DNA of 64,000 nt from positions 62,001 through 126,000 of the forward strand of contig CAIKHO010000007.1 of the NCBI GenBank assembly GCA_903827245.1. The letters run 5' to 3'. Source of the DNA: an uncultured Opitutia bacterium. GTDB taxonomy: Bacteria > Verrucomicrobiota > Verrucomicrobiia > Opitutales > Opitutaceae. Made by a program: the position numbers and the translations under genes. This document shows positions 30,525 to 35,557 of the stretch, piece by piece. Position 1 is the first letter of the stretch. Each line of letters opens with the position of its first letter. The notes beneath the pieces are model-generated. The model was not told where the DNA came from. It saw nothing but the letters and a program-made list of their open reading frames with translations, and ran no database searches.

Positions 30525-30624
30525 ATCTTTCTCTTTCCTCTTTATCTTAATCTTTCTCTCGGCCGGCAGGCTTGATTCGAAGGACCACTGACGAAAGAGA
30601 AGGATAAAGAGGAAAGAGAAAGAT
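30525..30624. repeat. Purine/pyrimidine long inverted repeat upstream of thrC (family P3, copy 1)
   Basis: Left arm 30525-30546 (ATCTTTCTCTTTCCTCTTTA...) is the exact reverse complement of the right arm (...TAAAGAGGAAAGAGAAAGAT). The right arm ends inside the thrC ATG and contains the only Shine-Dalgarno-like purine tract before it. If the hairpin forms in mRNA, the thrC ribosome site is sequestered. Further copies are at 43460-43550 and 54626-54688. Confidence 0.9.
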
Positions 30625-31981
30625 GAAATACATCTCCACCAGAGGCCAGACCCCCGCCCTCGGCTTTTCCGATGCCGTGGCCACCGGGCTCGCGCCCGAC
30701 GGCGGCCTTTACCTGCCGGAATCGCTGCCGGATTTCAGCGGCGACCTGGTGCGGTTTGAGAAGCTCGGATATGCCGAACTCTGCTGCGAGTTCCTGCGCG
30801 TCTTCGCGACCGACATCCCGGCGGAGGAATTGCGGGTGATCATCGCGCAGTCCTACACGCGGTTCGAGGATCCCGCCGTCGCGCCGCTCCGGCGGCTCGG
30901 GAAAAACCTGCATGTGCTCGAGCTCTTCCACGGCCCGACGCTGGCCTTCAAGGATTTCGCCCTGCAGCTCCTCGGCAATCTGTACGAGCGCCAGTGCCGC
31001 GTGCGCGGGGAGTCGATCAATGTGCTCGGCGCCACCTCGGGCGACACCGGGGCGGCCGCCATCTACGGCCTGCTCGGCAAGCCGCGCACCGCGATCTTCA
31101 TCCTTTACCCTGATGGCCGCGTCTCGCCGCTGCAGGAGCGGCAGATGGCCTGCACCGGCGCGGAGAACGTCTTCGCCCTCGCAGTCGACGGGACCTTCGA
31201 TGACGCCCAGAACGCCCTGAAGGACGTCTTTGGCGACCTGGCCTTCCGGGCGCAGCACCATCTGTCCGCGGTCAACTCGATCAACCTCGCGCGGGTGCTG
31301 GCCCAGTGCGTCTACTACCTTTATGCGTGGCTGCGGCTCCCGGCCGCGGAGCGCGGCAACGTCGAGTTCGTCGTGCCGACCGGCAATTTCGGCAACGTGC
31401 TCGCCGGCTGGATGCTCCAGAAAATGGGCGTGCCGATCCGCAGCTTCCGCGTGGCGACGAACCAGAACGACATCCTTTACCGCATGTTCACGACGGGCGA
31501 ATACCGCATCGGCGCCGTGCACCCGAGCCTGGCGCCGTCGATGGACATCCAGGTCGCTTCCAACTTCGAGCGCTTCATTTATTTCACCGTCGGCCGCGAC
31601 CCGGCGAAGGTCCGCGAGGTGATGCAGACGTTCAAGGCCACCGGTGCGTACCGGTTCGCCCATTTCAACCGCGACACGTTCACCGCTTCGCACTGCACCG
31701 ATGCCGAGATCCCCGGCATTATCCAGCGTGTCTACCGGGAGCACGACTACATCGTCGATCCTCACACCGCCTGTGGCTTCCGGGAGCTCGATCCCGCCCG
31801 GGTCAGCGTCGTGCTCGCCACCGCCAGCCCGGCCAAGTTCCCGGACACGATCAAGGCGGCCATCGGGCTTGAGCCGACTCATCCCAGCCTCGAGGCGCTG
31901 AAATCGCGGCCGGTGGTCAAACAGCGGCTGAAGGCCAATCCGGCGGTCATCAAGGGCTTCATCGTGGACCACGCCGTGTGA
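30623..31981 (+). CDS. thrC: Threonine synthase
   Basis: 452 residues. PLP enzyme that converts O-phosphohomoserine to threonine. The N-terminus MKYISTRGQTPALGFSDAVATGLAPDGGLYLPE is typical of the yeast/E. coli-type long ThrC. The PLP lysine is K110 in LAFKDFALQ and the phosphate-binding loop is GATSGDTGAAAIYG. It belongs with hom and lysC upstream; thrB and asd are not in the window. Its start codon and purine-rich ribosome site lie in one arm of the inverted repeat at 30525-30624. Confidence 0.95.
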   Translation: MKYISTRGQTPALGFSDAVATGLAPDGGLYLPESLPDFSGDLVRFEKLGYAELCCEFLRVFATDIPAEELRVIIAQSYTRFEDPAVAPLRRLGKNLHVLELFHGPTLAFKDFALQLLGNLYERQCRVRGESINVLGATSGDTGAAAIYGLLGKPRTAIFILYPDGRVSPLQERQMACTGAENVFALAVDGTFDDAQNALKDVFGDLAFRAQHHLSAVNSINLARVLAQCVYYLYAWLRLPAAERGNVEFVVPTGNFGNVLAGWMLQKMGVPIRSFRVATNQNDILYRMFTTGEYRIGAVHPSLAPSMDIQVASNFERFIYFTVGRDPAKVREVMQTFKATGAYRFAHFNRDTFTASHCTDAEIPGIIQRVYREHDYIVDPHTACGFRELDPARVSVVLATASPAKFPDTIKAAIGLEPTHPSLEALKSRPVVKQRLKANPAVIKGFIVDHAV

Positions 31982-32033
31982 CCGAAAAACAGCATGGACA
32001 TCCGGCGAAACATCGGTTCCTTGCCTCAACAAC

Positions 32034-32105
32034 ATGTCTCTGTTCCCGATCACGGCCATTGCGATTATTAGCGAACCCCAGCCCGGGTCCGGAGACTCGG
32101 CGTAA
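32034..32105 (+). CDS. Isoleucine leader peptide of the cimA attenuator
   Basis: A 23-codon reading frame, ATG to TAA. Its N-terminal half is MSLFPITAIAIIS: four Ile codons within seven (ATC 32049, ATT 32058, 32064, 32067), plus Leu and Thr. The position, 140 bp upstream of the isoleucine-pathway gene cimA and ahead of an intrinsic terminator, is that of a transcription-attenuation leader. A ribosome stalled on the Ile codons would leave 32081-32089 free to form the antiterminator, whereas one that reaches the stop codon would cover it. No strong Shine-Dalgarno sequence is seen. Confidence 0.82.
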   Translation: MSLFPITAIAIISEPQPGSGDSA

Positions 32106-32144
32106 GCGCCACCGCCACGCCGCCAGCCACTGAAGACCCCGGGC
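32081..32144 (+). promoter_or_regulatory. Antiterminator helix of the cimA attenuator
   Basis: GCCCGGGTC (32081-32089) can pair with GACCCCGGGC (32135-32144), nine pairs with one bulged C. The downstream strand is the same sequence that forms the 5' side of the terminator stem, so the two structures exclude each other. The upstream strand begins 12 nt after the last Ile codon, just clear of a stalled ribosome. Confidence 0.75.
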
Positions 32145-32167
32145 CTCAAACCCGGGGTTTTGTTTTT
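32136..32167 (+). terminator. Intrinsic terminator (attenuator) before cimA
   Basis: Perfect stem ACCCCGGG/CCCGGGGT with loop CCTCAAA, followed by TTTGTTTTT. It ends only 6 bp upstream of the cimA start codon, so it controls read-through into cimA rather than ending thrC mRNA. Confidence 0.88.
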
Positions 32168-32173
32168 CCCACC

Positions 32174-33748
32174 ATGAAACTTCCCGCCAAACCGGTCATC
32201 AGGATCTACGACACCACGCTCCGCGATGGAACGCAGGGTGAGGGCATTTCGTTTTCCGTCGCGGACAAGCTGCGCATCGCGGAGAAGCTCGACCAATTCG
32301 GGGTCGACTACATCGAGGGCGGCTTTCCCGGCTCGAATCCGCGCGACATCGCCTTTTTCGCCGAGGCCCGGCAGCTGCGGCTCAAGCACGCCCGGCTCGC
32401 GGCCTTCGGCTCCACGCGGCGCGCGGGGGTGAAGGCCGCCGAGGACGCCCAGCTGCGCACGCTGCTGGAGAGCGGGATGCCCGTGCTGACGATTGTCGGC
32501 AAAACCTGGCTGCTTCACGTCATCGAGATCCTGCGCACCACGGCGGAGGAGAACCTCGCCATGATCGAGGACTCGGTCCGCCATCTCGTCGGGCAGGGCC
32601 GCGAGGTGGTTTACGACGCCGAGCACTTCTTCGATGGCTACAAGGACAACTCCGACTTCGCGCTGCAGACGCTGGCGGCGGCACTGCGGGGCGGCGCCAG
32701 CAACCTCTCGCTCTGCGATACCAATGGCGGGACGCAGGTGGAGGAGTTCAAGGTGATCGTCGGCCGGGCCGTGCAGGAATTCGGCGGCGACAAGGTCGGC
32801 GTGCACTGCCACAACGACAGCGGCCTGGGGGTCGCGCTGTCCCTCGCCGGCATCGAGGCCGGGGCGACGCTCGTGCAGGGCACGGTCAACGGCTACGGCG
32901 AACGCGTGGGCAACGCGAACATGACGACCGTGCTGCCCAACCTCTTCCTGAAAATGGGCCGCACGGCGCACTGCGCGCCGCACCTCGGGCAGCTGCGCGA
33001 CCTGTCACTGTTCTTCGACGAGCTGGCCAACCTGCGGCCGGACCCGAAGGCGCCGTTCGTCGGCCAGTCGGCGTTCGCGCACAAGGGCGGCCTCCACGCC
33101 AACGCGGCCCAGAAGGTCGCGCGCAGCTACGAGCACATCGACCCGGCGCTCGTCGGCAACCACACCCGGGTGCTGGTGTCCGACATGGCCGGCCGCAGCA
33201 GCCTCGCGCTCAAGGCGAAGGAGATGGGTCTGGTGCTCGACGAGAAGCTGCCCGAGATGAAGGGCTTGATCGAGGAACTCAAGGAGCGCGAGTTCCGCGG
33301 CTACGAATACGAGGCGGCCGACGCCTCGTTCAAGCTGCTCGTGGCCCGCTCGCTAGGGCAGCAAAAGAGCTTTTTTGAGGTGGAGAGCTACCGGGTCATC
33401 ATCGAGCGCCATGGCACCGAGCTCTGGGCCGAGGCGACGGTGAAGCTCAAGGTCAACGGCGAGCTGGTCCATACCGTGGCCGAGGAGTCCGGGCCGGTCG
33501 GCGCGCTCGACCAGGCCCTGCGGCGGGCGCTGGAGAAAACCTACCCGCAGTTGCGCGTCATGACGCTGCGCGACTTCAAGGTCCGCATCCTCGACAGCAG
33601 CTCGGGCGCTGGCGCGCGCACGCGCGTGCTTATCGAAAGCGGCGACGGCAAATCCATCTGGGGCACCGTGGGCGTGAGCGACAACATCATCGACGCGAGC
33701 TGGGAAGCCCTGCGCGAGTCGGTGGAATACAAGCTGATGCAGGGGTGA
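32174..33748 (+). CDS. cimA: (R)-citramalate synthase
   Basis: 524 residues. It condenses pyruvate and acetyl-CoA to citramalate, giving 2-oxobutyrate for isoleucine without threonine deaminase. The HMGL-like TIM barrel shows VIRIYDTTLRDGTQGEGISFSV (residues 8-29), EGGFPGSNPRDIAFF, GVHCHNDSGLGVA and VNGYGERVGNANMTT. The C-terminal half carries the LeuA-type allosteric dimer domain. The KAPFVGQSAFAHKGG block separates it from 2-isopropylmalate synthases, which are otherwise the closest alternative. The Ile leader directly upstream independently supports an isoleucine rather than leucine role. Confidence 0.93.
   Translation: MKLPAKPVIRIYDTTLRDGTQGEGISFSVADKLRIAEKLDQFGVDYIEGGFPGSNPRDIAFFAEARQLRLKHARLAAFGSTRRAGVKAAEDAQLRTLLESGMPVLTIVGKTWLLHVIEILRTTAEENLAMIEDSVRHLVGQGREVVYDAEHFFDGYKDNSDFALQTLAAALRGGASNLSLCDTNGGTQVEEFKVIVGRAVQEFGGDKVGVHCHNDSGLGVALSLAGIEAGATLVQGTVNGYGERVGNANMTTVLPNLFLKMGRTAHCAPHLGQLRDLSLFFDELANLRPDPKAPFVGQSAFAHKGGLHANAAQKVARSYEHIDPALVGNHTRVLVSDMAGRSSLALKAKEMGLVLDEKLPEMKGLIEELKEREFRGYEYEAADASFKLLVARSLGQQKSFFEVESYRVIIERHGTELWAEATVKLKVNGELVHTVAEESGPVGALDQALRRALEKTYPQLRVMTLRDFKVRILDSSSGAGARTRVLIESGDGKSIWGTVGVSDNIIDASWEALRESVEYKLMQG

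Positions 33749-35471: not shown

Positions 35472-35557
<86 letters not shown>

Follow-up and report, generated by a model that had tools for sequence, protein, structure and literature searches.

Among the described systems in which a leader peptide governs transcription, the accessible part of PMC1183508 lists the attenuated enterobacterial operons thr, ilvGMEDA and ilvBN and explains the theory of their sensitivity. Upstream frames rich in codons for branched-chain amino acids (BCAA) also characterize the ilvB-II, ilvB-OMG and ilvB RNA motifs, which are thought to attenuate according to the available part of PMC10272879. The available part of PMC1262725 describes actinobacterial ilvB leaders as short frames in which Ile, Val and Leu codons form runs, with terminators before the BCAA gene; in the ilvB leader of Streptomyces coelicolor, codon replacement left regulation unchanged. 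In Firmicutes, i.e. outside Proteobacteria and Actinobacteria, the histidine leader peptides of hisS and hisZ were found through their conservation (PMC2965389, accessible part).

We analyzed a window of 64,000 nucleotides (the whole stretch of DNA under study, from the 3.55 Mb draft genome of an uncultured Opitutia bacterium), in which hom, lysC, thrC and cimA are consecutive, all on the + strand. The gene cimA encodes citramalate synthase, with a TIGR00977 score of 678.7 bits (cut-off, 450). Between the end of thrC at 31981 and the start of cimA at 32174, in the same direction, lie a leader frame and a terminator (Table 1), and we conclude with a probability of about 90% that a ribosome-mediated transcription attenuator controls cimA via the supply of charged isoleucyl-tRNA.

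Table 1. Features of the candidate attenuator and of its gene, with positions in the window
Feature	Position	Strand	Basis
Promoter-like element: A-tract GAAAAAC and –35-like TGGACA (31995–32000)	31983–32000	+	box in 41/41 copies
Leader reading frame, 23 codons, MSLFPITAIAIISEPQPGSGDSA	32034–32105	+	read directly; register in relatives
Regulatory Ile codons, four in seven (ATC, ATT, ATT, ATT)	32049–32069	+	read directly; Ile register in 41 leaders; ATT preference
Antiterminator 5΄ side (predicted): CCCGGG 32082–32087, then inner arm to the stop codon	32081–32103	+	individual folds, 40/41 copies
Antiterminator 3΄ side (predicted): ACGCCG 32117–32122 and shared CCCGGG 32138–32143 (= terminator 5΄ arm)	32117–32143	+	folds; partner-specific pairing across genomes
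Intrinsic terminator: stem-loop 32133–32161, T-run to 32167	32133–32167	+	sequence and terminator scan
cimA, citramalate synthase, regulated gene	32174–33748	+	TIGR00977 above cut-off

The leader runs from an ATG at 32034 to a TAA stop at 32103–32105, and its Ile codons at 32049–51 (ATC), 32058–60, 32064–66 and 32067–69 (ATT) make up four of residues 6–12. The strand GCCCGGGTC (32081–32089) is separated by 11 nt from the last Ile codon; its CCCGGG starts 12 nt past this codon, which is codon –12 counted from the stop, and 9 nt past codon –11, the last position that is commonly Ile in leaders. The terminator arms ACCCCGGG (32136–32143) and CCCGGGGT (32151–32158) are followed by TTTGTTTTT (32159–32167), and six bases (32168–32173) separate this T-run from the ATG of cimA. 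Direct reading bears out the initial annotation, to within a base, in its 23-codon leader with four Ile codons in seven and in its terminator ending 6 bp before cimA. The antiterminator strand that it placed after the Ile codons was correct in position, but the structure is really longer (32082–32143) and encloses the stop codon. In addition to what that annotation described, the element has its own promoter-like box. Two other features of the window were noted: an 813-codon open frame on the – strand (30542–32983), which runs opposite to thrC, the leader and some of cimA and is most likely a GC-rich artefact, and a tRNA-Tyr placed by ARAGORN at 35472–35557; Rfam at gathering score gave tRNA-Cys only.

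The window element contains what defines an attenuator, namely an Ile-rich leader, an intermediate terminator and an antiterminator predicted to share the terminator 5΄ arm. Its anatomy, register, conservation, alternative predicted folds and codon bias are read from the sequence by comparison and computation; where transcription starts, that the leader is translated and that isoleucine is sensed are inferences. RNA polymerase would start just 5΄ of the leader, and a ribosome would follow. When Ile-tRNA is scarce, the ribosome would wait at the Ile codons (32049–32069) and leave 32082–32103 free to pair with 32117–32143, and this antiterminator would allow cimA to be transcribed. When Ile-tRNA is plentiful, the ribosome would reach the stop at 32103 and cover the edge of strand 2 as well as the inner antiterminator arm, and the terminator would form. 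The enzyme is thus very probably made just when isoleucine runs short.

This arrangement resembles the enterobacterial thr, ilvGMEDA and ilvBN attenuators in its leader rich in codons for the end product, in its mutually exclusive antiterminator and terminator, and in the placement of the terminator before the first gene. The enterobacterial thr and ilv attenuators, however, precede operons of several genes and read codons for more than one amino acid, whereas the window-type element would read Ile alone and serve cimA (ilvA in relatives). A further difference is that its leader frame contains strand 2 and its antiterminator encloses the stop codon. The actinobacterial ilvB leaders are similar in combining a short branched-chain-codon frame with a terminator before a BCAA gene (PMC1262725, available part), the ilvB motifs differ in their gene, ilvB, and in their mixes of BCAA and Thr codons (PMC10272879, available part), and the Firmicutes histidine leaders differ in both amino acid and genes. 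The terms ilvA and Verrucomicrobia do not occur in the available text of PMC1262725, nor do ilvA, cimA, Opitut- and Verrucomicrobi- occur in the main text of PMC2965389. In the open-access literature, outside which most subscription journals lie, we found no report of attenuation by a leader peptide for cimA, for stand-alone ilvA or for any gene of Verrucomicrobiota, in agreement with the initial annotation, which knew of no such leader for cimA in this phylum. The element would best be read as a switch of known kind that acts on genes new to it, and we found none described for this phylum in that literature.

A scan of the region for terminators alone was unexceptional (three found, compared with 2.3 ± 1.8 in shuffled sequences), and the proof of the element therefore lies in its conservation. 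We sought cimA in 150 genomes of the family, a sample from a larger group, and found it in 126; the upstream DNA was covered for all 126 loci, some of them shortened by a contig end. The leader/antiterminator/terminator module precedes cimA in 44 of these 126 genomes, spanning 15 genera, where related genomes are counted as separate. Forty copies were obtained with a scan for a terminator and an Ile-rich frame, and four more, also with an Ile leader (G056, G110, G093 and G038), with the covariance model R1 and a check by eye. The 41 copies used for detailed comparison are the 40 from the scan and the relative L136, all with a terminator by selection. Among 80 named cimA loci, no convincing Ile leader was found beyond L136 and three loci (L128, L131 and L135) that are family genomes already counted, with leaders and terminators alike; a frame with scattered Ile (L144) was left out of the count. 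When R1 was applied to 384 genomes of the class, strong matches were confined to the window's own family. Six weak matches outside the family were read (a set without G372, G349, G232, G275 and G414): four looked like chance terminators and two stood before ilvA (G195 and G287). Within the family, the weak matches L242–L245, L247, L249 and L250 had no Ile leader, and L248 (G040) had a short frame with two adjacent Ile and no recognised biosynthetic gene downstream.

The initial annotation had named relatives that keep cimA without an Ile-rich leader as evidence against it. Such genomes do exist (82 of 126), and part of them carry the switch on ilvA instead; yet the other 44 have the module, with Ile codons, strand 2, stop and terminator in register, which supports the reading as an Ile attenuator of cimA. 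Because dozens of relatives keep the module before cimA or ilvA, we consider an Ile switch very probable. We also mapped the attenuator on a cimA protein tree of 35 rows, which comprised all full family loci except L016, which has an in-frame stop (29 of 30), plus six named loci. Its presence and absence needs six changes on this tree, at least three of them forced by supported branches, which indicates that the module was gained or lost more than once.

When the 41 leaders were aligned on the stop codon, Ile lay mostly within codons –18 to –11, with 33 occurrences at codon –12, 29 at –13 and 27 at –11. The peptide end is also conserved (PGxGxxA-stop), with PG at –7/–6, Gly at –6 in 39 and Ala at –1 in 40 of the 41 leaders; G014 has lost the usual stop codon. 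This conserved end and the structured RNA would also be compatible with two modes of action other than Ile-tRNA sensing: a peptide that stalls the ribosome through its nascent chain or a small molecule, or an RNA with a ligand or protein as binding partner. We consider such an explanation extremely unlikely. The Pro-Gly pair of the leader is the CCCGGG antiterminator strand, and the peptide end is conserved because it encodes this RNA-pairing strand; Ile is the sole repeated residue, its number and surroundings vary, and ATT and ATC interchange at the same codon. We take the Ile run to be conserved for another reason, namely reading of its codons by the ribosome. No known riboswitch or T-box matched in Rfam 15, where no family reached its gathering score with the window element and the best sub-threshold match (20.7 bits against a threshold of 55) was to an unrelated family; a T-box or riboswitch was accordingly rejected. 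Threonine sensing tied to hom-lysC-thrC was rejected as well, because no leader was seen before hom (27837) and the repeated codon is Ile.

The leaders differ from gene bodies in their choice of Ile codons. The 41 leaders contain 134 ATT and 48 ATC, compared with 8 ATT and 93 ATC in the four genes of the window. For 11 attenuated genomes, the leaders contained ATT and ATC in a ratio of 37:11, and their own cimA bodies in a ratio of 19:212 with a single ATA (P = 2e-22 for leaders against bodies). ATT and ATC are normally served by one tRNA-Ile. The selective-charging argument on codon choice, found in the accessible part of PMC1183508, therefore fails to explain the ATT bias. The bias might instead come from slower wobble reading or from keeping the stall site unpaired, and, standing against genes that write ATC, it offers a direct test of codon choice within a sensor.

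We computed the folding energy of leader plus terminator, which was –55.2 kcal/mol (z = –4.08), with none of 200 shuffled sequences as good. When copies were folded singly from strand 2 to the terminator 5΄ arm, the same long antiterminator hairpin, enclosing the stop codon, was predicted in 40 of the 41 (–20.5 to –34.8 kcal/mol), the exception being G014 (–13.3 kcal/mol). For the window, the predicted values are –26.3 kcal/mol for the antiterminator and –18.5 kcal/mol for the terminator; the antiterminator should accordingly win without a ribosome, unless an upstream hairpin holds strand 2. In some classical attenuators a protector (1:2) hairpin causes termination without translation, although it is not defining for all. 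In contrast to the enterobacterial attenuators, a hairpin of this kind is predicted inconsistently in the window-type element: of 40 predicted folds, 14 pair strand 2 with upstream sequence, as does the full fold computed for the window element.

The inner antiterminator arms paired more strongly with their own partners than with foreign ones (means of –14.1 and –12.6 kcal/mol, respectively), and none of 20,000 permutations was as good. When each genus was represented by a single copy and four ilvA copies were included, 0.44% of permutations were as good (genus-level Wilcoxon P = 0.025). Of 17 genera, 11 favoured the own partner; the other six did not, and the window's genus is one of them (–12.8 kcal/mol for own and –13.9 kcal/mol for foreign partners). 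Covariation of the two arms, which the initial annotation had named as a check, is thus seen when genera are compared but is absent within the genus of the window. In a covariance-model alignment, covariation was modest (0.148 compared with 0.119 in shuffled alignments, 1/500; 76.8% of cells paired), a count weakened by three probably untrue copies (21.5, 18.2 and 17.7 bits) among the 47 rows.

A T[GC]GACA box, mostly behind an A-tract, was found 5΄ of the leader in all 41 copies, 37 by scan and 4 by eye; the scan favours GACA by design, and a chance site in the ∼120 nt searched is expected at about 6%. In the window, the –10 position at 17-nt spacing (32018–32023, TCCTTG) is a poor match, and a strict sigma-70 scan of the region found nothing. 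The box suggests that transcription likely starts upstream of the leader, and it disfavours the start downstream of 32105 that had been named at the outset as a counter-indication. Near the start codon of cimA, the motif CTTGCC occurred in 39 of 82 loci without leader compared with 0 of 43 with leader (G056 outside this count), and attenuated and unattenuated cimA genes therefore seem to use different promoters. In unattenuated genomes, for example L014, L015 and L107, we observed a conserved AAAAGCTCCCTTGCCAG element close to this codon; the AAAAGCTCCCTTGCCAG/CTTGCC element is probably a promoter giving a very short 5΄ leader or none.

These upstream regions also bear on the possibility that the hairpin is an ordinary terminator of thrC, the Ile-rich frame a coincidence, and the cimA promoter one that overlaps the terminator. 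In the window thrC does end upstream in the direction of cimA, and in some relatives that lack an Ile leader (G054, G002, G051 and G080) cimA follows the terminator of an upstream gene. However, a thrC motif was present upstream of attenuated cimA in just 5 of 43 loci, compared with 28 of 79 unattenuated ones, which indicates that the module belongs to cimA, and on the ground of this rarity we rejected the explanation. The register of Ile run, strand 2 and stop across 41 copies and the promoter-like box before the leader likewise leave it exceedingly improbable.

Control might also be exerted by the same leader mainly at the translation start of cimA or via Rho, with a secondary role for the hairpin. 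The closeness of the terminator to the cimA start codon (6 nt), where no Shine-Dalgarno sequence was seen, agrees with such control. Yet the hairpin and T-run are kept while their distance to the conserved DTTLRDG codons of cimA ranges from 32 to 163 nt among copies, and we regard control of this type as very unlikely compared with transcription attenuation.

We looked for a threonine deaminase in the window's genome and found none (at 1e-30 nothing matched, and the highest TIGR01127 score was 60 bits against a cut-off of 379); cimA is therefore the likely sole entry of this organism to isoleucine, through 2-oxobutanoate. Among branched-chain amino acids, 2-oxobutanoate is needed for isoleucine alone. 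Control of cimA by Ile is accordingly sensible in metabolic terms, and Ile-only control fits. The attenuator would explain how organisms that use the citramalate route can tune isoleucine synthesis to isoleucine. We searched upstream of ilvB (L325) and leuA (L002) of the same genome for frames of 8–45 codons with >35% Ile, Leu or Val; no leader with an Ile run was found, the only frames being LVFVSSQLGG, LDGGVPICLVRTAV and VPICLVRTAV. An imperfect GC hairpin with a short T-run was observed before ilvB (L325), where no BCAA-rich leader frame was seen.

Matches of R1 far from cimA were found in G034, G041, G004 and G096, each before a relative of one PLP enzyme of ∼330 residues. Two of these proteins were scanned; their best models were threonine ammonia-lyase, at scores below the cut-offs of those models, with a PALP domain, and no ACT domain was found in either. 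One of the leaders reads MTSRNTNARAMIIGMIIISRRPGHGRIA, with Met among the Ile. That the module also precedes this second enzyme supplying the isoleucine pathway speaks for the Ile reading at cimA. In 12 more genomes, relatives of the same gene are preceded by a second sequence type, in which TCAGGGC is paired with GCCCTGA. Counting both types, an Ile attenuator precedes an ACT-less threonine deaminase (ilvA) in 16 family genomes, of which G021 has a broken ilvA frame and G114 an incomplete ilvA match. The cimA copy and the ilvA copy occur in 44 and 16 of the 150 genomes, and no genome has both (chance value 0.0018, computed with 17 genomes, G026 included, and ignoring kinship). Such either/or placement amounts to a natural experiment in which a regulatory RNA would follow the entry point of its pathway. 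In G026, a decayed attenuator of the ilvA type (L340), with no ilvA seen behind it, was not counted as intact; it is possibly a regulatory fossil left after gene loss.

In other families of the class, 21 of the 30 listed ilvA genomes were read: six (G327, G389, G256, G261, G287 and G479) had a clear Ile leader and terminator, one (G195) a weaker one, and 14 none. We tentatively propose, at somewhat less than even odds, that in this class an Ile-codon attenuator, old and transferable, governs isoleucine synthesis and is placed in each genome on only one of two unrelated enzymes at the pathway's entry, namely citramalate synthase and ACT-less threonine deaminase. The attenuator would stand in for feedback inhibition of the deaminase, with its control codon tuned through the use of AUU, a disfavoured synonym that the same tRNA reads.

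Some ilvA leaders depart from a pure Ile run. In G114 the leader (L241) reads LLLVVVLII, with no Ile run, and may have come to sense several of the branched-chain amino acids. In L237–L240 and several leaders of the second type, Met (ATG) is regularly mixed into the Ile run; these codons may be extra start codons or may have drifted from ATT.
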